A stretch of 64,000 bases of DNA from Deltaproteobacteria bacterium (GTDB taxonomy: Bacteria > Desulfobacterota > Desulfomonilia > UBA1062): positions 92,302 through 156,301 of the forward strand of contig JAHDOV010000003.1 of assembly GCA_018434685.1 (NCBI GenBank), read 5' to 3'. The notes under the pieces were generated by a model that was not told the DNA's origin, made no database searches, and worked only from the letters and a program-made list of their open reading frames with translations. Numbering within the stretch: position 1 is the first letter of the stretch; every line of letters starts with the position of its first letter. Below, piece after piece: positions 23,459 to 46,749 of the stretch. A program made the position numbers and the translations under genes.

Positions 23459-23851
23459 TTCTGGAGCGCATAGACCATTGGGGAGGAAAGCATCCGAGAC
23501 GTCTATAAAGTTATAAAAATGTAATCGTTAATTAAAACATGGAATGGGGGTCGCAAAGGCTCGGGGTCTTGATTCGAGAAGTTCTCATGCCCGAGCAAAA
23601 GATTACATCCATAAAAATATAAAGATGTACTGGTTACAGAGAAAGAATAGTATGCTGTTACGTGTGTGCCCTTGACCTCGCTTGATTTATGCGTTTTATT
23701 GACTGCGGCTATGAAAGATAAGGGGAGTAAAAGGATAGAAGGAAACAAGGACGAAAAGATGGCGGGGCCGTATCAGAAAGCCGGCACATGATAACCTGCC
23801 GTATCGGAAGAAACCGATGTGCTCCTCCAGGAAAATCACGAAAGAAAATCC
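23459..23851. other. Gene-free stretch before topB
   Basis: The sequence is AT-rich around 23510-23700 and contains no protein-like frame that I can support; opposite-strand frames are shadows or low-complexity. No clear promoter stands out. Confidence 0.4.
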
Positions 23852-26128
23852 ATGACCCGTATCATCATCAGTGAAAAACCGAGCATGGGCCGTGCCATCG
23901 CAGCGGCTCTGGGCATTCAGGGATCGGGGCGCAGCTTCATCCAGGGCTCTGATGTCATCGTCACGTGGTGTGTGGGGCACCTGGTGCAGGCCCTCGGTCC
24001 TGAAGGATACGACCCCGGGCTCAAATCGTGGCGGCTGGATACGGTGCCTTTTTTCCCTGAACCGTTTTGTTACTCGCCCATCGAGGCCACCAGGGATCAA
24101 TACGAGGTGGTGGCAAAACTCATGACCCGTGACGATGTGGTGGATGTCGTGAACGCCACCGACGCGGGTCGCGAAGGCGAGCTCATTTTTGATCTGGTGT
24201 ATCGCTTGTCGGGCTGCACCAAGCCGGTACTAAGGTTCTGGACTTCGAGCCTCACGGATGACGCCATCCGGGAGGCCTATGCCCGGATGAAGCCGGGCGA
24301 GGCTTACAACGGCCTGCGTGATGCGGCGCGCAGCCGGCAGGAGTCGGATTGGCTGGTCGGCATCAACTGCACACGAGCCCAGACGCTTGTCATGCGCCGA
24401 TCAGGAGGAGAAGGGGTTTATTCCATCGGCCGCGTACAGACACCGACTCTGGCGCTCCTTGTAAATCGCGAGCTGGAAATCACGGACTTCGTTCCGAAGG
24501 AGTTCTGGACCTTGTGGGCTACGTTTGACGCCACGGGTGGTACGTACAGAGGCAAGTGGTTCCACAAGGTGGAGGGGAAGGATCAGGATCGGTTCGAGAG
24601 GGAAGAGGACGCAAAGGCCCTCGCGAACAGGCTATCCGGTCTGCCCGGCACCGTTGCATCCGTCACCTCGAAGACGGAAAAGAAAAAGCCCGAGCTCCTG
24701 TACGACCTTACCAATCTCCAGAAAGAGGCGAACAAGCGCTTCGGGTTCACGGCAGAGCACACCCTGGAAGTGGCGCAGGACCTCTATGAATCCAAGCTCA
24801 TCAGCTACCCGCGCACCAATTCCAGGTATTTGACTGAAAGCGACGCGCAGAAGTCCGCGGGTTGGATCAAGGCCATCGCCCAGGGACAGCTTGCTCAGCT
24901 GCAGCCCTTTATCGGGGAGCTTCGGGAGCGCTGGCCCGTGAAGCTCGACAAGCGCTTTGTGAACGACAAGGAGGTGGAAGATCATTCAGCGCTGGTGCCT
25001 ACGGAGAACCCCGCAAAGAATCTCCAGGGTGACCGGCTGAATATCTACGAGCTGATCGCGCGCCGCTTCCTGGCGGCGTACTTTCCCGAACGCATCGAAG
25101 GCAAGACCACCATCATCACGAAGATCGGCAAGGAGACATTCAAGACCGCGGGCACGGTGGTGAAGGAATTGGGATGGTCCGCTGTCGACCCGTCCCATGG
25201 CCGGGAGAAAAAAGAAAAGGCCAAGGTAAAGAGCCCCGACGAGGACGAGACCGGAGAGAACGAGGATACAGGCCTGCTGCCTCCGGTCGTTAAGGAAGAA
25301 GCCGTCGAAACGAAGGAGCTCGTTCCCAAGGCAGGCAAGACCTCGCCCCCCAAGCGCATGACCGAAGGGGATCTGCTGGGCGTTATGCAGAGCGCGGGTA
25401 AAGAACTTGACGATGAGGAGCTCAAGGGCGCCATGAAGGACTGCGGCCTGGGCACACCCGCCACCCGGGCCAACATCATTGAAACGCTGCTGAAGCGCGG
25501 GTTTGTCGAACGCACACGCAATATCCTGCAGCCGACGGCCAAGGGGATCGAGCTGGTCCAATCCATCCGGGCCGAGACCCTGAAAAGCGCCCAGATGACC
25601 GGCGAATGGGAGGCGCGTCTGGAGAGAATCCGCCGGGGCGAGGCCCGGCGGGATGAGTTCATGAGCGGCATCCGGACCTTCGTAACGGAACTGGTAGATC
25701 AGATCAAACAGCATGCACCCCAAGGCGGCCGTCGCATGTTCGGCCCGGTGGTGGGAACCTGCCCGAAGTGTGGATCGAACCTGCATCTGCGGGACTGGCA
25801 AGGTCGTTACTACGTAAAGTGCGCCGCTTCCACAGATCGCGAATGCAAGGTATCCTTTGATTCGAATGCCGAAGGCAAACCCCTGGAGATTTGTCGATTC
25901 TGCCAGGGACCGGTCCGAACCACCCGCAACAATGGAAAGGTCTGCGCTCTATGCAACAAGTGGCAGACAGAAAAAGAAGCAGATCCCCGCACCCCCAAAC
26001 CCATCGCGTGCAAAACCTGCGGGCAGCCCATGGACGTGATCCCGTCGACACGAAAGGGTCAGTGGTTCTACCGGTGCCGGGAGTGCGACACGATCCAGGA
26101 GGCGAAGCCCACCGAACCTTTGGGTTGA
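23852..26128 (+). CDS. topB: DNA topoisomerase III
   Basis: This type IA topoisomerase cuts one strand through a tyrosyl intermediate and resolves replication or recombination intermediates. The Toprim domain is intact (IIISEKPSMGRAIA, DAGREGELIF). The active Tyr is in KLISYPRTNSRYL near residue 318, and VYSIGRVQTPTLALLV is typical. A charged linker (about 450-510) precedes the last core segment. The C-terminus carries cysteine ribbons (CPKC, CRFC/CALC, CKTC/CREC). ATG 23852 begins the conserved start MTRIIISEKPS. No conjugation genes are nearby, so it looks chromosomal. Confidence 0.93.
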   Translation: MTRIIISEKPSMGRAIAAALGIQGSGRSFIQGSDVIVTWCVGHLVQALGPEGYDPGLKSWRLDTVPFFPEPFCYSPIEATRDQYEVVAKLMTRDDVVDVVNATDAGREGELIFDLVYRLSGCTKPVLRFWTSSLTDDAIREAYARMKPGEAYNGLRDAARSRQESDWLVGINCTRAQTLVMRRSGGEGVYSIGRVQTPTLALLVNRELEITDFVPKEFWTLWATFDATGGTYRGKWFHKVEGKDQDRFEREEDAKALANRLSGLPGTVASVTSKTEKKKPELLYDLTNLQKEANKRFGFTAEHTLEVAQDLYESKLISYPRTNSRYLTESDAQKSAGWIKAIAQGQLAQLQPFIGELRERWPVKLDKRFVNDKEVEDHSALVPTENPAKNLQGDRLNIYELIARRFLAAYFPERIEGKTTIITKIGKETFKTAGTVVKELGWSAVDPSHGREKKEKAKVKSPDEDETGENEDTGLLPPVVKEEAVETKELVPKAGKTSPPKRMTEGDLLGVMQSAGKELDDEELKGAMKDCGLGTPATRANIIETLLKRGFVERTRNILQPTAKGIELVQSIRAETLKSAQMTGEWEARLERIRRGEARRDEFMSGIRTFVTELVDQIKQHAPQGGRRMFGPVVGTCPKCGSNLHLRDWQGRYYVKCAASTDRECKVSFDSNAEGKPLEICRFCQGPVRTTRNNGKVCALCNKWQTEKEADPRTPKPIACKTCGQPMDVIPSTRKGQWFYRCRECDTIQEAKPTEPLG

Positions 26129-33621: not shown

Positions 33622-36600
33622 CTAGGGCATGGAGCTCAGGGTTGCGGCCTGTTCGGCATAATACCGTTTCTTGTCGGCATACATGATGTCGTCGGCTACC
33701 TTGACGACGTCTTCCGGATCGTATTCATCGGAGCTGGCCAGGCCGATACTGATGCGGATCGGGACAGGGATGCTTATCCCTGAGGAATTCTTGACAATCA
33801 CCTGGAGGTCTTTTCCCCTCTCACGGATCCTTTTCAGAAGAATCTCTGCCTGAACCCGGTTTGTGGAGGGCATGAGCACGGAAAATTCATCCCCGCCGAC
33901 ACGTGATACAATATCCGTCTCCCTGCAGACGGACTTCAACAACTCAGCCACCGTGACTATTGCCGAATCACCCTCACTGTGGCCGTATGTGTCATTAATC
34001 TGCTTGAGCCCGTTGACATCGACAGCCATTACGGAAAACCATATATTCCTGAACTGCCTGGAATGCCTGATGGCCTTTTTCAGTTCCCGGTCCAGGAATG
34101 TGCGGTTGTAAATGCCGGTCAATCCATCCGTGCTCGCCAGCCTCTCCAGATGAATGAGCAGGAGCCTGTTCTGGACCACGGCAGAGATCTGGGCGATGAA
34201 GAGGTCAATTGTCTCGCTCGAAGGCCCGCCAATGTCCTTTCCGTTCAGGATTATGTACCCTGCCGTCTTATTGCCCCTTCCCCGGAGCGGGAAGACGTTC
34301 CACCCTGATGCCGTCGAGCTTTCATCCCCATGATTCCCGATATGCTCCATCTCCCGCTTGAGCACGGCATCGATATCGGGCTGTGCCATAACACCCCTGG
34401 TATCCAGGATGACCTTTTGCTGGGCACTTGACAGACCCACGAAGGCGCTTGCTTCGAGCAGTCCCCGGTTGGGGCCTTCCAGAATTATTGCGCCACGCAG
34501 ATCAGGAAACAGGCTCTTCAACTGTGCAAGGGTATAACCGAAGAGTTCTTCCAGGCCTTTCATGTTGTGTATCCCGGAACTGGTCTCTAAAAGCACCTCG
34601 GAGATCCTTTTCTGCCGCTCAATGAACGTGTTGCGTTCGATGATCTGTTTTTCCTTGATCATGGCTTCTGTGAGGGCTTCATTCAGGTCCATGGTGCGGA
34701 CATCGACCTCGTGCTCGAGGTCCTCCAGGAGTTGGGCGTTTTCTACATGGGGCCCCAGAAAGAGGCTCATATTGGTGAGGATCTCGGCCTCCTGTGCGGT
34801 ATAGCGCGAGCCATCGACCTTTCCTCCGATAAAAAACACGGCTGCGAGACGGTCATGGGCAAACACGGGCAGGATAATCTCCGCATCCTTGAGCGAGAGG
34901 AAATCCACTCCCTTGAACAGGTCACCAGCGCCTGTCCTGGAGAGCATTTTCCGGGTCAATAATCCCCGGGTTCCGGACAAAAGCTCTATGAGGCCGTTGT
35001 TCTTCTCCAGGACAATGGATACATCTCCGTCTTGATGGTTTTCGTGCTTTCCGAAAAGGCCCGCCGCCCTGTCATTGATGGTTGTCCATCCTGTAAAGAA
35101 TTCACCTTGCCGTGCATGGAAAACCGACGCACAGGAAAGGGTATCGAACACATCGAAGATCCAGGACCTCACCATGGCATGAAGCTCGTCGAGGTGTTTG
35201 ATATGTGACAGGCTTGCAGTGAATTCCCGGTATCTGTCATTCAGTACATCCGAGGTCTTCCGGATGAACAGGTTCAGCACGGAATTCCACACGCTGCGCA
35301 GCGGTGCATAGAGTAACGCTATCAGGAGGATGCCCCCAGGGAGAGCTGCGGTCTTGTCATGAAATACCAGCAGGGGTACAAGCCCTATCCCCATAAGCAA
35401 TGCAACCAGGCCGGTCCAGAACAGCATAGCCCTGACATACTGCAGGGCTATGCCCAGATTGAACTTGAACAGGCTGTAGGCAAGGAAAATGAGTGGGATG
35501 AAGATGAAGTTGCCCAGCGGGTATATCTCGGATCCATAAATCGCAGGGGTATTGGTCAGGCTCAGTGATGAGAGGATGAGAAAGGCGATCAATACATTTC
35601 TGAGAACCCTTTTCTGGTTTGACTCTTCCCTCTTGAATGTAGAAAAGAGGAGAAATATCGAATACAAGAGTGCTGAAAGCCACAGCGTGCTCATGATGTC
35701 ATAGAGCAGCGCCTTCTTTGCGAAGAACCCCCAGTAGTAGGTGAACATGCCCTGAAAATACCAGCTTGTCTGCGTCAGAGGTGCCATCACAAGGCCGATG
35801 AGGTATGCCAGGTATACGAGCCACCACTGGTTTTTCTTTCCGGTTATGAGAAAAATCAGGTGGAGGTTGGCGCCCAGCATGATGAGCGCGAGGAAGAAAT
35901 GATCAATCCGCGATATCATCAATGCGGTAGCCATATCGGGCACAATACCCACGAGCAGTATGTCCAGATTCAGGGAGGCATAGCAGAAACAGATGAGGCT
36001 GAACGTGAGGGATTCGGTCCGGTTCTTTTCCATACCAAGGACAAAGAGCGAGAGGAAAACGGCACTGATGAAGGAAAGCAGGGGCGGTATGCCGTAGGGG
36101 ATAACACGTGATACGATAAAGTCGATACGGTACTCCCGGAGCAGGAGACAGATCAGGAGGGCTGCCAGACAGTAGATGACGAGCAGTATTATGCGCAGGA
36201 TCCTCGAGAGGAGTTGCCTTTTCATATAGGTATTGATGCGAGGCCTGTCCTGGTAGAAGATGCCGCAGGCAGTGATGATCAAGGGGATGAATGCGAAGCT
36301 CAAGGGGGCGTATGCAGGCTCAAGGAACACATCGAGCACCACAGCGGAAAGCAGGAGTGCGGTACCGGCGGTGACGGTTGTAACAGTGCGCGAACACCGT
36401 TGTTCGTCTGCGGCGGGTCTGTGCGAAGACAGGCCTGAGAACACTGATGAAAGCCCAGCGCACAGAGCGATCCAGCCCGCAGCAGATTCAACTGTATCCC
36501 CTGCGAAGAAGGAAAGTGCGACCATACAGGCCATTGCAGCATAGAGGACCATTATGGAAAGGATGACTCCTCTGCCCGTGCGCACAGCATGAAGAAGGTG

Positions 36601-36867
36601 CCCGGCAAGGGGAAAGACAAAGAACGACAGGGCCGTGAAGAAGAAGGGGATCTCTATGGCGGACCCGTGGTTCGCCAGGATTGCGCCGACAATCCTCGGC
36701 AGGATGCCCAGGGAGACGAGGATACCGGTAACGGCAAAAATTCCCACTTCCCGGCGTGAGATTCCCCTTCCTGCCGCAAAGAGCACTATGATGATTCCGG
36801 CCAGGAACGTAATAAGCGCCGGCATCATACATAAAGCGGATATGTCAAAAGCCTCAGTCACCCTCAA
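33622..36867 (-). CDS. Very large membrane GAF-GGDEF diguanylate cyclase
   Basis: The 1081-residue protein has about 13-15 hydrophobic helices in the first 490 residues. A GAF-like region (about 520-700), a coiled coil (HEVDVRTMDLNEALTEAMIK), a second GAF region (730-880) and a C-terminal GGDEF domain follow. The active motif is intact, RVGGDEFSVLMPS, and RETD five residues before it is the product-inhibition site. It should make cyclic di-GMP in response to a membrane or small-molecule signal. The start codon is TTG 36867, supported by GAAGGGA 5 bases upstream; ATG 36828 is an alternative. No EAL domain is present. Confidence 0.9.
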   Translation of the reverse strand: MRVTEAFDISALCMMPALITFLAGIIIVLFAAGRGISRREVGIFAVTGILVSLGILPRIVGAILANHGSAIEIPFFFTALSFFVFPLAGHLLHAVRTGRGVILSIMVLYAAMACMVALSFFAGDTVESAAGWIALCAGLSSVFSGLSSHRPAADEQRCSRTVTTVTAGTALLLSAVVLDVFLEPAYAPLSFAFIPLIITACGIFYQDRPRINTYMKRQLLSRILRIILLVIYCLAALLICLLLREYRIDFIVSRVIPYGIPPLLSFISAVFLSLFVLGMEKNRTESLTFSLICFCYASLNLDILLVGIVPDMATALMISRIDHFFLALIMLGANLHLIFLITGKKNQWWLVYLAYLIGLVMAPLTQTSWYFQGMFTYYWGFFAKKALLYDIMSTLWLSALLYSIFLLFSTFKREESNQKRVLRNVLIAFLILSSLSLTNTPAIYGSEIYPLGNFIFIPLIFLAYSLFKFNLGIALQYVRAMLFWTGLVALLMGIGLVPLLVFHDKTAALPGGILLIALLYAPLRSVWNSVLNLFIRKTSDVLNDRYREFTASLSHIKHLDELHAMVRSWIFDVFDTLSCASVFHARQGEFFTGWTTINDRAAGLFGKHENHQDGDVSIVLEKNNGLIELLSGTRGLLTRKMLSRTGAGDLFKGVDFLSLKDAEIILPVFAHDRLAAVFFIGGKVDGSRYTAQEAEILTNMSLFLGPHVENAQLLEDLEHEVDVRTMDLNEALTEAMIKEKQIIERNTFIERQKRISEVLLETSSGIHNMKGLEELFGYTLAQLKSLFPDLRGAIILEGPNRGLLEASAFVGLSSAQQKVILDTRGVMAQPDIDAVLKREMEHIGNHGDESSTASGWNVFPLRGRGNKTAGYIILNGKDIGGPSSETIDLFIAQISAVVQNRLLLIHLERLASTDGLTGIYNRTFLDRELKKAIRHSRQFRNIWFSVMAVDVNGLKQINDTYGHSEGDSAIVTVAELLKSVCRETDIVSRVGGDEFSVLMPSTNRVQAEILLKRIRERGKDLQVIVKNSSGISIPVPIRISIGLASSDEYDPEDVVKVADDIMYADKKRYYAEQAATLSSMP

Positions 36868-37167: not shown

Positions 37168-38061
37168 TTATTCCGTAGAGCCTGATTTCTGCGGCGTAAG
37201 GTTTTTCGGCCGAATCTTTTTCCACCGCTCACCTGCCGGGCAGGCTCGCATGCATTCAATGCAGAAATCCACGTCGGTAATGTATGTCTGGCCGCTTTCA
37301 ACGAGAAGATCCCGCTTTTTCATATGCTGGCGCAGCATCCTGATATATGCAGGCCATTCCCGCAACCTGGCAGGCGGCAGGCGTTTGAAACCGAGTGACC
37401 AGTAGACAAAACATGGATCCACAGCATAGCCATCCGGTGTCAAAGCCCCTGCAGGGCAGGCATCCACGCACCTGTTGCAGCCGGTACACAGATCGAAATC
37501 CTGCCTTGAATCCGGCTCGAGAGGCGCCTCGGTGACGATGGCGCACAACCGCTGGTGCGGCCCGAACTGGGGTGTCAGGAGCAGGTTGTTTCTGCCGATC
37601 TCTCCCATGCCGCAGCTTACGGCCGCATGTTTGAAGGAGAGAAATCCCACCGTGCGGGTCTGGCGAAATTTTCCCCCGGTCTCAGGATCATGTTTAAAAA
37701 TCTCGACTGGTTTGTCCGCTGAAATCGGAAGGGTCAGGTAGCCTTTGCGCTCGAGCATGCGTCCGATCTTTTCAGCGGTTGCATCGAGCAGCCGGGAGGT
37801 CTGCATTTTGCTGCGGGTCCAGAGCATGATGTCGGGGGCGTATACAGATCCCAGTGTGTGCGCTACCGCCATTACGATCACGCTTTTGGCAGAGGGCATC
37901 AAATCCGTGGCCGGCCGGGGCGGATACGCTAACATGAGATTCTTCGCATCCGCGATTCCCACCAGGTCTATTCCCTCGGCGAGTATCAGTTCTTTGATCG
38001 CGCGTGCATCGATCTCAACAGGTTCGATGGTTTCCGTTTTTTCGGACTCAGGGCTTGTCAT
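37168..38061 (-). CDS. QueG-like 4Fe-4S protein 3 of the operon
   Basis: The 297-residue protein resembles epoxyqueuosine reductase/reductive dehalogenase-type proteins. It has a substrate-domain segment LILAEGIDLVGIAD and an AAVSCGMGEIGRNNLLLTPQFGP stretch typical of the cobalamin-binding core. Two ferredoxin sites follow, CTGCNRCVDACP and CIECMRACP. ATG 38061 is chosen because GGAGGAG stands 7 bases before it; it overlaps the end of the preceding gene by 14 bases. It lacks the C-terminal HEAT repeats of true QueG. Function unknown; cobalamin use is inference. Confidence 0.85.
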   Translation of the reverse strand: MTSPESEKTETIEPVEIDARAIKELILAEGIDLVGIADAKNLMLAYPPRPATDLMPSAKSVIVMAVAHTLGSVYAPDIMLWTRSKMQTSRLLDATAEKIGRMLERKGYLTLPISADKPVEIFKHDPETGGKFRQTRTVGFLSFKHAAVSCGMGEIGRNNLLLTPQFGPHQRLCAIVTEAPLEPDSRQDFDLCTGCNRCVDACPAGALTPDGYAVDPCFVYWSLGFKRLPPARLREWPAYIRMLRQHMKKRDLLVESGQTYITDVDFCIECMRACPAGERWKKIRPKNLTPQKSGSTE

Positions 38062-39094
38062 TTTTGTCTCCTCCAGCCTGTAACGGTTTGGGGATTCCGG
38101 ATTCACACGGCACACCAGTGGCGCAAAGACCGCACCCATAGATGAAGAGATGATAATTTTTATTGCAGTACTTCAGGGACCTGGCGACTTTCTGATAACA
38201 GGCTTCCTTGTCGTGGGCATGTTCTGCGGTGATTGCATCCACGGGACAGCGCATGGCGCATTGTAGGCATTTCCGCCCCTGGTAGTGCAGACAGTAGGCA
38301 TGAATATCGTCCGGCCGTGTGCGATTTGGGGCAAGCTGTACGTTCACCACAAAGCTGCCGAGCCGGTGCGCGCACCCTTTTTCCGTGATGAGAAAATCCT
38401 GCATGCCGAACGTGCCGAGCCCCGCGGCATAGGCGATGTGCCGGTGAGACCACGGGGAGGCCCAGCCGACTTTCGGGTATCGCTTCTTGTTGAACATCGG
38501 GGTCACATCCGGGGATATGGCCAGAATCCCCCGTTCCATGAGATCGGCAACAATCTCACGCACAATCCTCTGGCTGAAGATTTCACCGAGAAGACGGGTC
38601 TGCGCCCATCGCTCAGCCGGCCAGTCTGTCTGGAGGGCATTGTCGTTTTTCGTGTTGCGGGTAATGGGCATCACAAAGGAAACCACGCTCAAGTCCTTGG
38701 GATCAGGGGGGGTAACCCCGTTGTTTTCCGCCTGCCATTTCATGATCTCCCACGGGGTAAAATGATGCGGGCCGATGATTTCTTTAAATTGATCGAAAAT
38801 CGGATCATCTCCGCGAACAAAACCCACCAGGGGTTTCTCGAAGATCGGTTCATTATAAAACGGGTATTCCATGGCATTTTCCGGATGACCTGCGATTTTG
38901 TCGGTGATGGTTCTTATAAACCATTCTTCATCCGGCACAGGGATCTGAGCGTCCGGTCGAACGTTTGAGTTCAACTCCGGCTGTCCGGGGAAAAACATCC
39001 CCCGCATCTCGCCGATGGCGTTTTTCATCCCCTCGATATCCGACAGAAATGAAAGCCGGCGATAGCGCTCCTTCATTCTTGTGCGATTCCCCAT
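38048..39094 (-). CDS. QueG/reductive dehalogenase-like 4Fe-4S protein 2
   Basis: The 348-residue protein has a long N-terminal part (PFYNEPIFEKPLVGFVRGDDPIF) seen in reductive-dehalogenase-like proteins. A core with HIAYAAGLGTFGMQDFLITEKGCAHRLGS and a ferredoxin segment follow, with CLHYQGRKCLQCAMRCP and CGLCATGVPC; the cysteine spacing is atypical for a standard 2x[4Fe-4S] module. There is no Tat signal, so it is probably cytoplasmic. GGAGG 5 bases before ATG 39094 fixes the start. It is cotranscribed with the other two paralogues. Confidence 0.82.
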   Translation of the reverse strand: MGNRTRMKERYRRLSFLSDIEGMKNAIGEMRGMFFPGQPELNSNVRPDAQIPVPDEEWFIRTITDKIAGHPENAMEYPFYNEPIFEKPLVGFVRGDDPIFDQFKEIIGPHHFTPWEIMKWQAENNGVTPPDPKDLSVVSFVMPITRNTKNDNALQTDWPAERWAQTRLLGEIFSQRIVREIVADLMERGILAISPDVTPMFNKKRYPKVGWASPWSHRHIAYAAGLGTFGMQDFLITEKGCAHRLGSFVVNVQLAPNRTRPDDIHAYCLHYQGRKCLQCAMRCPVDAITAEHAHDKEACYQKVARSLKYCNKNYHLFIYGCGLCATGVPCESGIPKPLQAGGDKNDKP

Positions 39095-39127
39095 ACTGCC
39101 TCCGGTCTTCAACCTGGTTTTTATAAG

Positions 39128-40168
39128 TTAGGTTGTTTCGTACAAGGCCCGTCTCTGAGGCGGCAGGCCTTGCATCCGCTCTTTGCCCTCCTGTGGCGAT
39201 ACGGCTTGAAGGGAACCGTCTTCGTTCTGGACCACCACGCCGCTTTCTTTGAGCATTTCATAGCGTCTATTGCGCTCCTGTTTCTGAGGGTGGCAGATCA
39301 ACTGGCAGTTGCCGCAGGTTAAAAACATCTTGTATGGCGAGAGCGAGTGATAATAACCGCCTCCCATATCAGGCCAGTGACTGTACGTGGCCAGGGCGTT
39401 CATCAGGGCGGGCATAAATTCCTCATCTTTTTCCGGAATGGGGAAACGGCCCGGCGACCAGGTGGACCACGTTCCGGACGGATGCAGGCCGGTGAACCCG
39501 CCGCATACATATTCGCACCTCAGGTAGCTCTTGCGTTTCGAATAGGTGAAATCCATTCCCCCGAGCGTCACGGTTGTTTTCTCATCCTTGTCCATGGTTC
39601 CTGAAGGGCACGATGCCATGCACAAGCGGCATTGATCGCAATAGCAATCTTTCGGCGGCAGCGGGTCGGTGGGCCGGAAATCCGCCGTGGTAACGACCGC
39701 TCCCAGGATGATTGCCGCGCCATGCCTGGGCGTGATGACGTTGCCGGACAGGCCAAAGGAACCGACGCCGGAGCGAACCGCCAGGTAACGCTGTGAAATA
39801 TCCGGCATCATGTCCAGCAGCCCGCCGGGGGTATCCGAGCGATAATAATTATTGGCGATAACAGGGACGGATTTAAATCCTTTCATTTCGATAAAACCGG
39901 CCAGATTCAGGGCCGCACCGCTGGCGAGATTGTTGATTTCGATGTTATTGCGCTCATGGGGCATGCGGTCTTTTTTGGATAAATAGAGCTCGATCGCCTG
40001 CGGATCGAGCGCATAGGCAAAACTGACGGCAGACCTGGCCCCGGGGAGCACCCGCGTGATATCCGCTGACTCGGGTCCTCCGGAGAGCGTTTCAGTTGTG
40101 GCGATACCGACAGCGCAGGCCCCGCCCAGCGTTACCTGATCCAAAACAATCTTTCGCAAGTTTTCCAT
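39128..40168 (-). CDS. QueG-like 4Fe-4S protein 1 of the operon
   Basis: The 346-residue protein belongs to the same superfamily as its two downstream neighbours. The core segment is VRSGVGSFGLSGNVITPRHGAA, followed by CDQCRLCMASCP and CGNCQLICHP for two 4Fe-4S clusters. AAGGAG precedes ATG 40168. The gap to the next gene is 33 bases. The three paralogues are well diverged, so they probably have distinct tasks rather than being recent copies. No substrate can be inferred safely. Confidence 0.83.
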   Translation of the reverse strand: MENLRKIVLDQVTLGGACAVGIATTETLSGGPESADITRVLPGARSAVSFAYALDPQAIELYLSKKDRMPHERNNIEINNLASGAALNLAGFIEMKGFKSVPVIANNYYRSDTPGGLLDMMPDISQRYLAVRSGVGSFGLSGNVITPRHGAAIILGAVVTTADFRPTDPLPPKDCYCDQCRLCMASCPSGTMDKDEKTTVTLGGMDFTYSKRKSYLRCEYVCGGFTGLHPSGTWSTWSPGRFPIPEKDEEFMPALMNALATYSHWPDMGGGYYHSLSPYKMFLTCGNCQLICHPQKQERNRRYEMLKESGVVVQNEDGSLQAVSPQEGKERMQGLPPQRRALYETT

Positions 40169-40201
40169 GGTGTTCTCCTTGACCTGAACGATCCTTTTCT
40201 A

Positions 40202-41422
40202 TCACCCGGCCGGTGCAATTTTGCCGTTGATATAATCTGTCATAATTTCAGATCCCGCCGGCGCATTTACCTGTTCCCACGCGATAGCGGCAGGACGCCC
40301 GCCCTTTCTTTTCATAACATTCATGATAGATGGATGTGCGTAGATGCTTCCGGGAATGAACAACGGGATCTTGGGAGTCTGATGATAGTCGACGTCGTTC
40401 CATGTATACCAGACGAATCCCTTGTTGATGAACGATCGTATTTTGGTCAACCGGCCGGTGATGCCGACGTCAAGATAACCAGTTTCAACCTCCCGGTTGT
40501 ATAAGAGCCAGGCATAGGAAAGCGCCTCGTGGCTGAACAGATCACCGGATGAAATAATTAACCCTTGGCCGGGTGCAGTGACCTGGCCATTATCCGGGCC
40601 GAACGTGGAGAGTACCTTTCTTCCGGATGACACCACAAGGCGCAATCGTGATGAGATGGCCGGTATCTGGTTGATCTCTTCGTACATGGCATAAAACGAT
40701 TCCCCGCCTTGGTGAAAAGCCTTTCTGCTGTCCTGTCTCAAAAAGCCCACAGAGATTTTCATACCGGAGGTGATATCGCCCATTATATGAGAACTTACCC
40801 GGGCTAGATAAATGATATGGTCTGCCTCGGTGACGGCCGAGGTGACCCATACGGGTTCTTTCCAGTGGTGCGATCCTGCAGGATATACCGGCATAAACGC
40901 ATCATAGCCCTGTTCTTCAAAAAATACGGCCTCAGCGTTGTTCTGCGTAATGACATCAAAAAGCCCCGCCTGTTTACAGCACGCTCGGGATGACCCTTTC
41001 TGCCCGTGCTTTGACCAGAGAACACTCTCCACGCCGCTGGAATCGCCCGCCATAATCCGGCCGGCTCCCTTTTCCCGTAACAGCCGTATCATAAAATTCA
41101 ATGCCCACGGATCGCTGGTGGCCGGGAACGGATTGCCTGAATTGACGGCAAGCTTGATGAACACGGAATCCCCCCTGGACAGCCAGGAGAAATCCGTAGA
41201 AGCCTCTATGGTTTTCTTGAAAACAGCATAGGCACCGGCATGTTCACCCTTTGGGATCCATGCACTTGCCACATGGGGAGTCCAGGTTTGTGCGACAGGC
41301 ATCTCCCCAAGCTCGGCCTCCGCGGTTTTCATGCTGTGGGCGCACGCCGGCAGAACCGCAGCGCAGGCGGCAGCACCGGTAAATTTCAAGAACTCCCTTC
41401 GTGACCAGTGATTTTCCGACAT
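40202..41422 (-). CDS. Tat-exported DUF362 protein
   Basis: The N-terminus has a twin-arginine signal, SRREFLKFTGAAACAAVLPAC, with a cysteine that could make it a lipoprotein. The body is a DUF362 domain (DSVFIKLAVNSGNPFPATSDP, GAGRIMAGDSSGV). DUF362 proteins of anaerobes are often found with ferredoxin modules and have no proven reaction. AGGAG 7 bases upstream supports ATG 41422. The TatC encoded at 1.4-2.1 kb would serve its export. It places one step of this operon outside the cytoplasmic membrane. Confidence 0.87.
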   Translation of the reverse strand: MSENHWSRREFLKFTGAAACAAVLPACAHSMKTAEAELGEMPVAQTWTPHVASAWIPKGEHAGAYAVFKKTIEASTDFSWLSRGDSVFIKLAVNSGNPFPATSDPWALNFMIRLLREKGAGRIMAGDSSGVESVLWSKHGQKGSSRACCKQAGLFDVITQNNAEAVFFEEQGYDAFMPVYPAGSHHWKEPVWVTSAVTEADHIIYLARVSSHIMGDITSGMKISVGFLRQDSRKAFHQGGESFYAMYEEINQIPAISSRLRLVVSSGRKVLSTFGPDNGQVTAPGQGLIISSGDLFSHEALSYAWLLYNREVETGYLDVGITGRLTKIRSFINKGFVWYTWNDVDYHQTPKIPLFIPGSIYAHPSIMNVMKRKGGRPAAIAWEQVNAPAGSEIMTDYINGKIAPAG

Positions 41423-41495
41423 GGTTTTACTCCTGGGATAACTTTAAACAGTTATTCCCTTCAATCATTTCAGGAAAGGGAAAGTGCTGTTACGG

Positions 41496-42329
41496 TTACT
41501 TGGGATACCTTTCCCTGATCTTATTTTTCAAGAACGTAAATCCGGGCGTTATGGATTCGGTCAGCCCCATGGGCAGCAGGGTTTTTACTGGCTGAGAGAT
41601 GTTCATGCCACCGCCGGACTTGAAGAGGTTCTCGATAACCACGGACAAGTGAGAAGCCGGGAGTCCCACGGCAAGTTCATCCTGGCTGATGCCTGCAAAG
41701 GCCCTGTCTCCCATACCGGGAATGACCACCTGCGGCCGGCCGGTGATAAATGGTATCAGGCCGCCTTTAAAACAGCTTTCCCCAAAGCCTTCAAATGTTG
41801 AAAGTACAGGCGTTGTGTAATCAAAGCACAGAGCCTGAATCAGATGATTGATGTGGGTGCCGTCGCCGAAGATCATGATCGAATGCGGCTCCATGATGGC
41901 CTGATGGAGCGGAGAGCAGACAAAGCCCATGTATTCCTGCATCTTCTGCAGCGTCTTTTCGCCGTCCGGGCCGGCAAACAGGCCCTTGAAAAAATTAAAC
42001 CGGTTCTGCTCGGCTGCCCGGTCCTTGTGCCATCCCTGCTGCACCTGGCTTTCAATGAGATCCTCATCGGAAACATCCACCCATTTATGGAAGGCGGAAG
42101 CCGGCACACAGAAATTGTCATCGGAGGTCATGGCCACATGCCAGCCATGGCGGCGTGCATAGGTGAATGCCTGGCACAAACTCCATTTCTGCCCCATGGT
42201 CGATGGCCGGATTGCCTGCCCCGGTATGTCATCCATTGTTTTGATGTAGGTGATCCCCACCGGCCAGGTCGGGAGATGCAGTCTATGGTAGAGTTCTTCG
42301 CCGGCGTTCCTGATTTGTTCTAAGTTCAT
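41496..42329 (-). CDS. DUF169-family protein, first gene of the TetR-governed operon
   Basis: The 277-residue protein matches DUF169: PVGITYIKTMDDIPG at the start, then SLCQAFTYARRHGW with the conserved cysteine, CVPASAFH, and the glycine-rich VIPGMGDRAFAGISQDELAVGLPASHL. DUF169 proteins occur in anaerobes beside C1 and corrinoid enzymes, but the reaction is unknown. It is the promoter-proximal gene; GAGAGGG precedes ATG 42329. The promoter and operators lie within 120 bases upstream, shared with the divergent tetR. Confidence 0.86.
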   Translation of the reverse strand: MNLEQIRNAGEELYHRLHLPTWPVGITYIKTMDDIPGQAIRPSTMGQKWSLCQAFTYARRHGWHVAMTSDDNFCVPASAFHKWVDVSDEDLIESQVQQGWHKDRAAEQNRFNFFKGLFAGPDGEKTLQKMQEYMGFVCSPLHQAIMEPHSIMIFGDGTHINHLIQALCFDYTTPVLSTFEGFGESCFKGGLIPFITGRPQVVIPGMGDRAFAGISQDELAVGLPASHLSVVIENLFKSGGGMNISQPVKTLLPMGLTESITPGFTFLKNKIRERYPK

Positions 42330-42382
42330 AGTGTCCCTCTCATGACAAACAGCCTGATTGCTGAAAGCGCATACAATTCATA

Positions 42383-42462
42383 TTTATCGATCGTTAAAAA
42401 CGATAAAGAGTCAAAGGCTGTCTGTCAAGAAATATTTAACGACCGTTAAAACCTGCTTGACA
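42383..42462. promoter_or_regulatory. Divergent promoters with two TetR-type operators
   Basis: Minus strand: TTGACA (plus 42423-42428), 17-base spacer, TATCGT (plus 42400-42405) drives the DUF169 operon. Operator 1 is ATCGTT-AAA-AACGAT at 42390-42404, set over that -10 box inside a wider TTTATCG/CGATAAA repeat (42383-42407). Operator 2 is TTTAACG-AC-CGTTAAA at 42435-42450. Plus strand: TTGACA at 42457-42462 with 17 bases to CATGAT could serve tetR. Shared AACG/CGTT half-sites suggest a single repressor controls both directions. Confidence 0.72.
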
Positions 42463-42493
42463 GAACACCCCGCAATGATCATGATCCTCTATC

Positions 42494-43180
42494 ATGATGA
42501 GCTCTCCGAAAACAGAAGCCCCCAGAAAGAGGGCATCTTTTCAAAAAAAAGAAGGGCCGCAGAAACAACTGACCCGTGAAAAAATTCTTGAAGCGGCGAC
42601 ACAGGTCTTTGCCGACTATCCGTACTATACCGCCAGCATCCGGATGATCGGAAAGGCGGCCAAGATCGATCACCCGCTGATTAATTATTATTTCCCCACC
42701 AAGGCGGCCCTTTTTGAAGAAGTTCTCAAGCGGGTGACCGAACAGTATTATGTGGCCAACATTTCATGGTTCGAGGGCCTGAGAGAATTAGGCCCGGAAA
42801 AGGGTCTTTCTCTGTATATCGACCGTTTTCTGGATTTTGCCCTGCAGCACCCCAGGGCCTTCCGCATCATTACGCTCAACCTGGTTTCGGCTGAAGAAAC
42901 AGAAATCATTCCCGGTTATCAGCAGATCCAGGATTTCTTCGCCAGGACAACGCATACCTTTAGGCAGGCGATCCCCTTGAGCGGTTCGAAGCAGGACATT
43001 GAAATGTTAACCACCAGTTTCAACACGCTGGCCATTAATTACCTCGGCGCAAGCACCTACTATGCAGGCATTTTGGGGATGGAGCCGGGGAGCCGTCAAT
43101 ATATGCAGTGGGTGAAGGATTCATTGATCTACATGATCCTGCCAAGATTGAAACAGCTGCTCGGCGGAACTGCTCAGTAG
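42494..43180 (+). CDS. TetR-family repressor, probable regulator of the DUF169 operon
   Basis: The 228-residue protein has a TetR HTH: REKILEAATQVFADYPYYTASIRMIGKAAKIDHPLINYYFPTK, residues about 30-75, and a ligand-binding helical domain after it. It is divergent from the DUF169-DUF362-QueG-like operon and shares a 164-base regulatory gap with palindromic operators. There is no good RBS before ATG 42494 and the predicted promoter would start transcription almost at the ATG, so translation may be leaderless or begin at a later Met. The last 41 codons are repeated at 45961-46083. Confidence 0.87.
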   Translation: MMSSPKTEAPRKRASFQKKEGPQKQLTREKILEAATQVFADYPYYTASIRMIGKAAKIDHPLINYYFPTKAALFEEVLKRVTEQYYVANISWFEGLRELGPEKGLSLYIDRFLDFALQHPRAFRIITLNLVSAEETEIIPGYQQIQDFFARTTHTFRQAIPLSGSKQDIEMLTTSFNTLAINYLGASTYYAGILGMEPGSRQYMQWVKDSLIYMILPRLKQLLGGTAQ

Positions 43181-43190
43181 TTCATTTTAC

Positions 43191-45518
43191 TTAGATTCCT
43201 TTTTTATATTGGGCGTTGGTTGAGGGATGAATACTGTGCCGGAGTTTTTCTTTTGAATCCGGATCTCCATGGAGAAGGTTTTCAAAAAGCTTTATTATTC
43301 GGGATTTATCCGTCGCTACGGTAGTTTCGGTTGTTATATCCCTTAAATCAATCAAAAACCCCGAGAAAGTATCCGGTAAATCAGTAACAATATCAGTATT
43401 CAAGAAATTATGATTATTGTAGAGACAAGGATAGTTCCCCTTTGTTTTTTCAATAAAAAGAGAAACGTTGTTTAAATTTGTAATGGATGAAGATTTATTG
43501 CACGTTTCAAGACAGTCCTCATCAATGCTGTTTTTATCGCACCCGATAACCTGATGAAACAGACATTGCCTGCTGCTGAGAAGCAAACCGGGATGATAGA
43601 TACTATAATACAGCTTGAAATTCTCAGGAGTGATAATTCTTTGTATCTGATATTTGTTGAGTTCGTTTGAAATAAATGAGCCAGAGCAGTTAAAGTTTTC
43701 TTTTAAACATAAAAGACTGAAAGAATTGACAATATTGAGACAGGGCCCTGCTATCCAGGGGATTCCTTTTTTATAGGCTTCATACGCTATCCCGGTATTG
43801 TTTGTTACAATACGCTCCGGCTGCACCTGCTGCAGAAATTTCACCGCAGCTCTGTAGTTTTCTCCTAGTAAAACAGCGGGGAACCAGGGAATTAATTTTT
43901 TGTTTTTTAAAAAAAGATCAATGAACTCACAACAGTCATTTTTAAAACAACCGGGAAGTTGAAAAAAGATATCTGCAGAGGTCTCATCACACAAGTACAA
44001 ATCATTCTTAGAGGATATTAACACTGCAAGAGTGGGTTTAATGTTTACCGCAGGTTGTTTTTTTAAGAAGGGAACTTCAATCGGGTCAACAAATTCTTTT
44101 GAACCATTCAAAAAGTACAACAGCTTTTTTTTAATGGAAGAGAGTTCTTTAAAAGAGATGAAAAGATCACTCTCAAGATCTTCCAATTCCAGATGCTCAA
44201 TGTGGTATTCCGTCGTATTCAAGGCTTTCAGTCTTCCAAATAATACATCGTAATTCAGGCACTCGGCCGTGCTTTTCCTGGTTTTTTGGGAAAGATCTTT
44301 GCTGCCTGGAGGTGGTGTTTCTCTCTCACCTCCTTGGTCCGGGGTGTATGTGCCGGCATGCACGAGATTATTTTTTGAGAGTATAATAAATGAAGTGTCC
44401 GGCGTTGTTACAGATACTTTTAAAGGCGTATCGATCCTCCCTGAAATGCGTATTGTTAAAGGAACCTTAGCGATGCTTAAGTGGTTGATTTTATGTTTAA
44501 CCGCAGTTGTAATTTCATCTTTTTCCTCATAGAGGTCTCTCTGGTCCTCTTCCCTTTTATTATTCGTAGAATACGTATTGATGTCGGAAAGATGCTGAAT
44601 TGAATTATCCCGGGGATTATCAATAAACATATCTTTATTGATATCTCCCCTCAGATAGGCATTTGAAAAATCCCGGTTAAACACCTTATAAAGGTCACTA
44701 CCCTCATTATTGAGGCTGTTATGCTGATAAAAACTCGTGAGTTGTTTTTTCCAGCAACCTACCACGGTATATACATAATCAAAATTCTTAATTCTTCCTT
44801 CGATCTTTATGGAGGCAACCCCTGCATCACATAGTTCCCTCAGATCAGAATATGCTGAATTATCTTTGAGGTTAAGGGGATAATTTTTGCCTTGCCGGGT
44901 AATGAGATATCTATCTCTGCATGGTTGACTGCACTTGCCGCGATTTCCCGACGTGCCTTTCAGAAAAGAACTTAAATAACAAATGCCGGAAAAAGAGATA
45001 CAGTAGGAACCGTGGACAAATACTTCAGTTGAGATATTATGTTGTTGTGCAACCAGCGTTAACGCTTTTATCTCGGAGATATTTAACTCTCTTGAGAGGG
45101 TAACCCGGGCAGCACTCAGTTTATGTAAAAAATGAATCTGGCCTTCATTATGTGTATTAAGCTGAGTAGATGCATGCAGTATAAAACCTTTAAAATAGTT
45201 GGATAACAGATAAAGCAACCCTAAATCCTGAACAATTATGGCGTCGATCCCGGTATTAATGAGCTTGTTCAGCAGACTTACAAGGTAGGGAAATTCACTT
45301 TGCGCAATAAGGATATTGAGGGTGAGAAAAACTTTGCAAGTATTTCTATGAGCGAGATGAACAATCCCAGGTAAATCTTCAAGAGCTATATTCGTTGCCC
45401 GGTTTCTCGCATTGAATTTATTCAGCCCGCAGTATACAGCATCGGCCCCTGCTATAATTGCAGCTTTTATAGAATCGATATCGCCGCCTGGTGCGAGTAA
45501 TTCAATTTGATTTTTCAT
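43191..45518 (-). CDS. U32-family protein (RlhA/collagenase-like), AT-rich
   Basis: The 775-residue protein begins with the U32 pattern IELLAPGGDIDSIKAAIIAGADAVYCG. It continues with EVFVHGSYCISFSGICYLSS and SGNRGKCSQPCRDRY, the cysteine set that binds an Fe-S cluster in tRNA/rRNA-hydroxylating U32 proteins. C-terminal cysteines (QVIGCDKN, DCLETC, YPCLYN) form a second region. It is longer than RlhA (about 650 aa). Base composition is strikingly AT-rich compared with both neighbours, suggesting transfer from elsewhere. ATG 45518 opens the conserved part; 45554 is an alternative. RBS is weak. Confidence 0.82.
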   Translation of the reverse strand: MKNQIELLAPGGDIDSIKAAIIAGADAVYCGLNKFNARNRATNIALEDLPGIVHLAHRNTCKVFLTLNILIAQSEFPYLVSLLNKLINTGIDAIIVQDLGLLYLLSNYFKGFILHASTQLNTHNEGQIHFLHKLSAARVTLSRELNISEIKALTLVAQQHNISTEVFVHGSYCISFSGICYLSSFLKGTSGNRGKCSQPCRDRYLITRQGKNYPLNLKDNSAYSDLRELCDAGVASIKIEGRIKNFDYVYTVVGCWKKQLTSFYQHNSLNNEGSDLYKVFNRDFSNAYLRGDINKDMFIDNPRDNSIQHLSDINTYSTNNKREEDQRDLYEEKDEITTAVKHKINHLSIAKVPLTIRISGRIDTPLKVSVTTPDTSFIILSKNNLVHAGTYTPDQGGERETPPPGSKDLSQKTRKSTAECLNYDVLFGRLKALNTTEYHIEHLELEDLESDLFISFKELSSIKKKLLYFLNGSKEFVDPIEVPFLKKQPAVNIKPTLAVLISSKNDLYLCDETSADIFFQLPGCFKNDCCEFIDLFLKNKKLIPWFPAVLLGENYRAAVKFLQQVQPERIVTNNTGIAYEAYKKGIPWIAGPCLNIVNSFSLLCLKENFNCSGSFISNELNKYQIQRIITPENFKLYYSIYHPGLLLSSRQCLFHQVIGCDKNSIDEDCLETCNKSSSITNLNNVSLFIEKTKGNYPCLYNNHNFLNTDIVTDLPDTFSGFLIDLRDITTETTVATDKSRIIKLFENLLHGDPDSKEKLRHSIHPSTNAQYKKGI

Positions 45519-45617
45519 AGGGCGTTGTTGCAACCTAGTTGAAATCGGTAACAAAGAAAACGTGTTTCTAAAATATCAGAGATTTTTCATTAATGATGAA
45601 ATTCTGGGTTTATAATA

Positions 45618-45673
45618 AAACCGGGGCCAGAGTAGGTTTTTCCTGTTGAAAAAACCTACTCTGGCCCCGGTTT
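45618..45673. repeat. 24-bp perfect inverted repeat (RAYT-associated hairpin)
   Basis: The arms at 45618-45641 and 45650-45673 are exact complements, with an 8-base loop. Each arm contains CCGGGGCCAGAGTAGG. It lies at the broken end of a RAYT transposase remnant and resembles the paired REP (BIME) elements that such transposases process. Confidence 0.85.
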
Positions 45674-45729
45674 CCCCTTGGGGGTTGCAGCTATGGCAGG
45701 CCGTTGCGGTAGCAGGCTGTGGGGTGCTG

Positions 45730-45866
45730 GTTCGAGCCACCTCTCCCAAACGCGATACAAAACAAGACCTGTCTATATCGTCTTTGACTATATCTCTCTT
45801 CTCTATCCCTCGAATTATTACATGGTGCAGGGTTCCCGGGGAATCCAATCTCGCATGTCTTGGCAT
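45730..45866 (-). pseudogene. REP-associated tyrosine transposase (RAYT) remnant
   Basis: The first 45 residues match RAYT/IS200-like TnpA_REP proteins: MPRHARLDSPGTLHHVIIRG, then EKRDIVKDDIDRSCFVSRLGE. The homology then breaks, and the catalytic HUH and Tyr parts are missing; the frame runs on into the hairpin at 45618-45673. A complete gene would need another 150-250 codons. Confidence 0.78.
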
Positions 45867-45960
45867 TGCTTAAGACTCCATACTCCCTTTCATTTTCCTT
45901 ATTTCCCTGACAAAATAATACGGTGAGTTCAGCTAGTCAACAACGTCCCCTTCTTATTCA

Positions 45961-46083
45961 TACTATGCAGGCATCCTGGGGATGAAGCCGGGGAGCCGTC
46001 AATACAGGGAGTGGGTGAAGGATTCATTGATCTACATGATCCTGCCGAGATTGAAACAGCTGCTCGGCGGAACTGCATCGTAA
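45961..46083 (+). pseudogene. Detached 3' end of a second tetR copy
   Basis: These 123 bases match tetR 43058-43180 base for base at most positions, including frame and stop. They encode YYAGILGMKPGSRQYREWVK and onwards to QLLGGTAS, against ...EPGSRQYMQWVK and QLLGGTAQ in the intact gene. The differences fall mainly at third codon positions or make conservative changes. There is no upstream part, so it is a fragment of a paralogue or of a duplicated target. Confidence 0.85.
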
Positions 46084-46227: not shown

Positions 46228-46749
46228 ATGAGAATAGTCTCTAAGATAAACAGCGGGCTTCTTTTGGCCTGCACAATGGTTGCCCTTGTTATTACCTTTA
46301 CTTCATCGCCTGTTTTTGGGATTCCTATCGCCGATGCCGGCGGTCCTTATACCATCGACGTTGGTCAGGATTTATGGCTGGATGGTTCACGATCGTATGT
46401 GACGGATGCTGATAAAGGAAACTCTATAACGAAATATGTGTGGGCCTTTGAATTCATGGCGATCCCGTTTGCACAAGGCGCGACTCCAACCCTGACCTAC
46501 CAGCAGGTAGTGGATGCGATTGAGGGCTACTACCAGAGAGCTATTCTCTTGGACTCCTATAACGTGTTCAATCTGTGGGTAGAAGATTCGACCGGCCGTA
46601 CAGCAAATGAAACAACCACGGTGATGATACGCTCTCAAGCCACACCCGTACCTGTGCCGGAGCCCTCTACAATGGCTCTTCTCGGGGCTGGATTGCTCTG
46701 TGTTGCAGGGGCCAGAAGGATAAGACGTTCCTTCTTATCAGGGAATTAA
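46228..46749 (+). CDS. PEP-CTERM sorted surface protein
   Basis: The 173-residue protein has a signal peptide (SGLLLACTMVALVITFTSSPVFG), a PKD/Ig-like middle (ADAGGPYTIDVGQDLWLDGS) and a classical PEP-CTERM tail: VPEPST, a hydrophobic helix and a basic end ARRIRRS. Such tails are recognised by an exosortase, usually for export with exopolysaccharide. No exosortase gene is in the window. GAAGGGA before the ATG supports the start. Confidence 0.9.
   Translation: MRIVSKINSGLLLACTMVALVITFTSSPVFGIPIADAGGPYTIDVGQDLWLDGSRSYVTDADKGNSITKYVWAFEFMAIPFAQGATPTLTYQQVVDAIEGYYQRAILLDSYNVFNLWVEDSTGRTANETTTVMIRSQATPVPVPEPSTMALLGAGLLCVAGARRIRRSFLSGN

Follow-up and report, generated by a model that had tools for sequence, protein, structure and literature searches.

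A putative TetR-controlled operon encoding DUF169, an exported DUF362 protein and three divergent Fe-S proteins of the QueG/RdhA fold

Three two-cluster Fe-S proteins, designated Q1, Q2 and Q3, are encoded together with a DUF169 and a DUF362 protein in the window (the whole 64,000-nucleotide stretch that was analyzed), which was taken from a 4.29-Mb genome assembled in 58 contigs and 99% complete. By sequence comparison, Q1-Q3 are members of the class III B12 superfamily through their nitroreductase/B12 fold, and tetR, DUF169, DUF362, Q3, Q2 and Q1 form one operon plus one divergent TetR gene. There is good evidence, at the level of conserved operator-like sites, for a local TetR regulon, and the operon probably serves a new anaerobic reduction pathway.

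Gene organization

Five minus-strand genes in the order DUF169, DUF362, Q3, Q2 and Q1 (37168-42329) share a control region with tetR, which is divergent on the plus strand (42494-43180; PF00440, E = 3e-12) and encodes the putative repressor. The first operon gene (41496-42329, minus strand) encodes a DUF169 protein (COG2043; PF02596, E = 1e-36, 127 bits versus a gathering cut-off of 27), in which Cys74 and Cys186 are invariant across 8 homologues. The second (40202-41422, minus strand) encodes a DUF362 protein (PF04015, E = 7e-23, 82.2 bits versus a gathering cut-off of 24) with a lipobox-like LPAC and a predicted Tat signal (SRREFLK; TIGR01409, 22.7 bits, cut-off 16.7), consistent with the single exported component that had been read from the letters alone. 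Sequence searches returned no solved structures for DUF169 or DUF362; DUF169 turns up in a Desulfovibrio nitrate-fitness screen (PMC4001038). Q3 (346 aa, 39128-40168), Q2 (348 aa, 38048-39094) and Q1 (297 aa, 37168-38061), all on the minus strand, are dicluster Fe-S proteins of the QueG/RdhA fold.

Open reading frames and Pfam matches put the six genes where the sequence-only reading had placed them, except that the starts of Q2 and Q1 were corrected to the ATG codons at 39094 and 38061, which are the best starts. A good ribosome-binding site precedes each of these two and every other minus-strand gene of the operon. The Q2 and Q1 reading frames share 14 bp, and gaps of 73, 33 and 33 bp separate the other neighbors. 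The operon contains no transporter, ligase or RdhA gene, and no cobalamin riboswitch or other Rfam RNA was found within the window at gathering scores.

On one side of the operon lies a gene for a GGDEF protein (33622-36867) and on the other a gene for a U32 peptidase (43191-45554); neither protein suggests itself as a partner. The GC content of the operon is close to that of the surroundings apart from the AT-rich U32 stretch. That stretch (43191-46000), which carries the peptidase gene and adjoins the operon, has a GC content of 0.39-0.43 versus 0.53 overall. Beyond it, a small secreted protein (46228-46749) ends in VPEPSTMALLGAGLLCVAGARRIRR, a PEP-CTERM-type sorting signal. Elsewhere in the window, a topoisomerase gene (23819-26128), compared with seven genomes drawn from its genus, family or phylum, is only 25-29% identical to the best match and is possibly a copy of mobile-element type; it proved useless as a baseline for identity, being itself highly diverged.

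Control region

Two palindromes resembling TTTAACGAYCGTTAAA lie 52 bp apart between tetR and the operon. Putative operator 1, TTTATCGATCGTTAAA (42383-42398), lies just downstream of the -10 box of the operon promoter, and putative operator 2, TTTAACGACCGTTAAA (42435-42450), lies between the two -35 boxes. Both are kept in G346, a genome of another family that has only the phylum in common with the source genome, where the tetR-DUF169 gap contains TTTTAACGATCGTTAAAA, the counterpart of operator 1, and TTTTAACGACCGTTAAAA, likewise 52 bp apart. Sigma-70-like promoters adjoin the palindromes on both strands: a putative operon promoter, TTGACA-17-TATCGT (42400-42428, minus strand; 10/12 matches), and a putative tetR promoter, TTGACA-17-CATGAT (42457-42485, plus strand), both of them consensus matches only, in a region whose total promoter count is at chance level (7 versus 6.1).

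When the genome was scanned with the palindrome pattern allowing at most one mismatch, two sites were found in 4.29 Mb, both in the control region; the reversed control pattern gave 0 matches, and about 0.1 were expected from base composition. The encoded regulator has a TetR_N DNA-binding domain and operator-like palindromes at its own promoter, as predicted for a TetR-family repressor, and TetR would bind at the two palindromes. We regard the regulon as local because sites of one class mark orthologous promoters in distant genomes and are absent elsewhere. Both parts of the earlier proposal, a single control region with two palindromic operators common to tetR and the operon and a TetR-type local regulon, agree with the uniqueness of these sites in the genome and their retention with the same spacing in G346. 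A single operator copy with one mismatch was also found in G098, between nitronate-monooxygenase (NMO) and SDR genes, in a cluster that has Q3 and a 57% identical TetR.

Family and fold of Q1, Q2 and Q3

The three proteins are 21-26% identical to one another and fall into separate clades, which ruled out a recent tandem duplication of one gene. Their best named models were TIGR00276 (QueG; Q1 47.1, Q2 29.5 and Q3 44.9 bits versus a curated cut-off of 200) and TIGR02486 (RDH; Q1 45.7, Q2 20.3 and Q3 26.1 bits versus a cut-off of 160), all well under cut-off. No match to PF13486 (Dehalogenase domain) was found in Q1-Q3 or in the source genome, and a Pfam scan of the three detected no HEAT repeats, in keeping with the earlier description of them as lacking both these repeats and Tat signals.

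Structure databases were searched with profiles built from orthologues. The Q1 profile matched PceA (8q4h, E = 6e-22 over 133 residues) and QueG (5d08, E = 1e-21), the Q2 profile matched 8q4h (E = 4e-9), and the Q3 profile matched QueG (5d6s, E = 4e-7). AlphaFold (AF2) models were of moderate quality (pTM 0.58 for Q3 and 0.59 for Q1), the N-terminal core being better and the Fe-S half poor. The Q3 model gave Z = 14.4 to NpRdhA and 13.9 to QueG, and the Q1 model 12.7 and 12.5, respectively; the top PDB matches of both were all RdhA or QueG, followed by CblC/CblD (Z ~8) and nitroreductases (Z 6-7). A nitroreductase-type cofactor fold is thus predicted from models for Q3 and Q1, and from the profile alone (E = 4e-9) for Q2. 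The eight cysteines of the two [4Fe-4S] clusters are kept in Q1, Q2 and Q3, the last Cys of Q2 being offset by one alignment column.

Phylogeny

A tree of 42 sequences resolved three separate clades, one of Q3 (100/100), one of Q1 orthologues (100/99) and one that unites Q2 and shorter relatives of it (100/99), all of which stood apart from RdhA (100/100) and QueG; the deeper order was unresolved, with some long branches. Profiles, fold matches and these clades bear out the assignment of Q1-Q3 to the QueG/RdhA superfamily as three diverged proteins, and the phylogenetic check that had been suggested placed them in no known clade. Assignment of Q1-Q3 as bona fide QueG or RdhA was ruled out by score, motif and phylogeny.

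The window Q2 and Q1 are sisters of the G346 copies, to the exclusion of genomes of their own family and, for Q1, of their own genus as well; this position suggests either horizontal transfer or differential loss. For Q3, the nearest relative (84% identity) comes from a Desulfobacterales genome, so the host too is probably a bacterium of this sulfate-reducer type. Proteins related to Q2 at roughly 33-46% identity are widespread in the phylum (109 of 345 genomes), so the short Q2 form would have a wide role of its own.

Relatives in viral and plasmid collections were almost absent; a viral contig (IMGVR_UViG_3300025789_000289; L188:3761-4585) encodes a QueG-like two-cluster Fe-S protein. The sole full-length QueG-like gene of the source genome (L174:1486-2607, on contig C48) scored 157 bits versus the cut-off of 200 and has no DYH motif, which makes a part in queuosine synthesis doubtful.

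The catalytic tyrosine position

The tyrosine above the corrin is Tyr101 in QueG and Tyr246 in PceA (PMC4646009). In an alignment made via RdhA and Q1-relative rows, Q1 has Ser at this position, Q2 has Glu and Q3 has Asn, the last two residues being less sure at such low identity; the mapping rests on RdhA, as the E. coli QueG row was out of register in that helix. The Tyr is kept in the distant Q1 relatives L097, L098 and L155. Neither the QueG DYH motif nor its catalytic Asp is present in Q1, Q2 or Q3 in the alignment. Class III B12 enzymes have no sequence motif for cobalamin binding (PMC4646009). That the pathway is corrinoid-dependent, as had been suggested, is a possibility that the fold raises, while the catalytic Tyr of the class is missing from all three proteins.

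Linkage and co-occurrence in other genomes

The closest counterpart of the operon is the G346 cluster, in which TetR is 77%, DUF169 81%, Q2 83% and Q1 83% identical and the Q3 homologue (Q3') 52% identical, tetR occupying the same place as in the window. The cluster has no DUF362; it has AOR, HypA and HypB genes between DUF169 and Q3', and two ferredoxins of ~360 aa with two C-terminal 4Fe-4S motifs. Smaller subsets are linked in other genomes: DUF362, Q3 and Q1 in G071 (L040), Q3 and Q1 in G034, DUF362 and Q3 in G104 (L144), Q2 and Q1 in G022 and G015 (the G015 pair, L045, being found by tblastn), and a DUF169-family gene adjoining Q1 in G012. TetR-Q3 linkage also recurs outside the source genome, and at six further loci Q3 accompanies a ferredoxin-nitroreductase, in most cases together with a MarR gene and short relatives of Q2. 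Just upstream of the 84% identical Q3, a DUF169 remnant comprising residues 154-191 only (L039:1861-1977) appears to be what a deletion left of this operon.

Among 345 genomes of the phylum, 7 carry Q1 and 12 carry Q2, with both present in 5 (p = 4e-7); DUF169 has 8 carriers, 4 of which also have Q2 (p = 6e-5). Kinship is ignored in both p values. The linkage of the five genes elsewhere, which had been proposed as a check, holds for subsets, and the exact set with DUF362 was found in the source genome only.

That there is no single pathway, xenobiotic-type genes having accumulated and been horizontally shuffled so that TetR controls a chance set, would fit the widely varying gene content around each Q gene, the affinity of Q1 and Q2 to a genome of another family and the lone remnant in L039, but is quite improbable given that TetR, DUF169, Q2, Q1 and the operator pair stay together in two families at 77-83% identity and that several gene pairings recur independently.

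Neighboring genes and possible substrate

Genes beside relatives of the operon genes include sulfatases (L142, L143 and L144), DUF1329 (L142, L143 and L205), an MMPL exporter (L039 and L205), NMO and SDR (L143), and 2-hydroxyacyl-CoA-dehydratase-type genes (L146). Two loci of G098 have relatives of reductive dehalogenases. At L142:9234-15499 (contig C96), DUF169 lies near a cytosolic member of the RDH family (above cut-off at 219 bits), a GST, a 38% identical TetR and DUF1329. At L205:6979-16701 (contig C93), a 467-aa Q3 homologue is followed by two RdhA-type genes with Tat signals, accompanied by small RdhB-like membrane genes, and by a Tat ferredoxin of the type found beside Q2 and Q3, with DUF1329, phosphotriesterase and MMPL genes adjoining; this locus is a possible organohalide cluster.

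Circumstantially, these neighbors would fit the anaerobic processing of a hydrophobic compound that may be halogenated or sulfated. The substrate inference is weak because the catabolic genes flanking relatives vary greatly, and circumstantial because the window operon has no such genes and its genome no PF13486 match.

Proposed mechanism and alternatives

Our preferred reading, advanced tentatively, is of an effector-inducible reductive operon in which release of TetR by a ligand is followed by reduction by B12-fold two-cluster proteins. TetR bound to both operators would block the operon until released by a small organic molecule. This ligand would probably be hydrophobic, of an aromatic, polycyclic or steroid-like kind, and might carry halogen or sulfate groups. 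Q1, Q2 and Q3 would be cytoplasmic low-potential two-cluster carriers with a flat cofactor, for which a base-off corrinoid is most likely and a flavin possible. At least one of them would reduce the compound or its CoA ester, or feed such a reduction. The reaction would be other than ordinary reductive dehalogenation or epoxide reduction, because the proton-giving Tyr of RdhA and QueG is replaced. DUF169 would probably be a partner in the cytoplasm and DUF362 one at the envelope. Counting against this reading are the loss of the catalytic Tyr in all three proteins and the absence of transporter, ligase and RdhA genes from the operon and of a cobalamin riboswitch from the window. The more specific claim, that Q1-Q3 represent three new B12-and-Fe-S (class III) enzyme classes without the proton-donating Tyr, and that, jointly with the DUF169 and DUF362 proteins, they serve an inducible anaerobic pathway in which the key reducing step differs from both dehalogenation and epoxide reduction, is at present rather doubtful.

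Loss of the catalytic Tyr could also be read as the mark of proteins that have no organic substrate and serve instead in the reductive activation or loading of an enzyme with a metal cofactor (corrinoid, tungsten AOR or nickel), DUF169 and HypA/HypB/AOR being clients or helpers. The position of the AOR, HypA and HypB genes in G346 and the appearance of MMACHC/CblD-type B12 chaperones as the next fold matches would suit such a role; the window operon and the other linked clusters lack all three of these genes, and three mutually distant members would be needless for an activator, and we consider it unlikely.

The core is of the nitroreductase fold, and relatives of Q3 and Q1 adjoin ferredoxin-nitroreductases, NMO and MarR/TetR genes, as they might in an operon that responds to a toxic aromatic and serves detoxification or redox stress. 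In such an operon the Q proteins would bind flavin rather than B12 and work like Fe-S-fed nitro/quinone reductases. We give this little credence, as class III B12 enzymes scored Z 12-14 versus 6-7 for nitroreductases, and the two-cluster part has the B12-class arrangement.

The inducible reductive operon, if it is one, would place three clearly separated new class III clades within one inducible unit. Its regulator and operators would be usable to find the inducer, hence the substrate, and it would open a first way to the function of DUF169 and of an exported DUF362.

Comparison with known systems

No description of the gene set, nor of a reaction for DUF169, was found in the open literature searched, in line with the earlier statement that no described system has exactly these genes. 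DUF362 shares a Pfam clan, CL0471, with the nickel-pincer enzyme LarA (DUF2088) (PMC11770544), but its weak match to NPN group 22 (20.8 bits versus a cut-off of 400) ruled out a LarA-type nickel-pincer isomerase. The ferredoxin-nitroreductases beside Q3 in MarR-type clusters (L139 and kin) share with the Q proteins a nitroreductase fold, 4Fe-4S clusters and neighborhoods, but differ in having an N-terminal ferredoxin and an ordinary nitroreductase domain. The B12-processing proteins CblC and CblD (3som, 5cuz) have the cofactor-binding fold in common with the Q3 and Q1 models (Z ~8) but, unlike Q1-Q3, are eukaryotic trafficking proteins without Fe-S clusters.

QueG (5d08, 5d6s; TIGR00276) has the same core and cluster pattern as Q1-Q3, whereas the latter score 29-47 bits against its cut-off of 200 and have no DYH motif, catalytic Asp or HEAT tail. 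In RdhA (PceA 8q4h/4uqu, NpRdhA 4ras), as in Q1-Q3, a ferredoxin part with eight cysteines and two [4Fe-4S] clusters comes after a B12/nitroreductase-type core; Q1-Q3, in contrast, are shorter, far under the RDH cut-off, without Tat signal, PF13486 or RdhB, and with the Tyr replaced. Two kinds of reaction, dehalogenation and epoxyqueuosine reduction, have been assigned to class III B12 proteins, and further undiscovered members are expected (PMC4646009). The superfamily is already known by its fold; new, as judged from these comparisons, would be clades that fail the tests of both named families, in a new operon.
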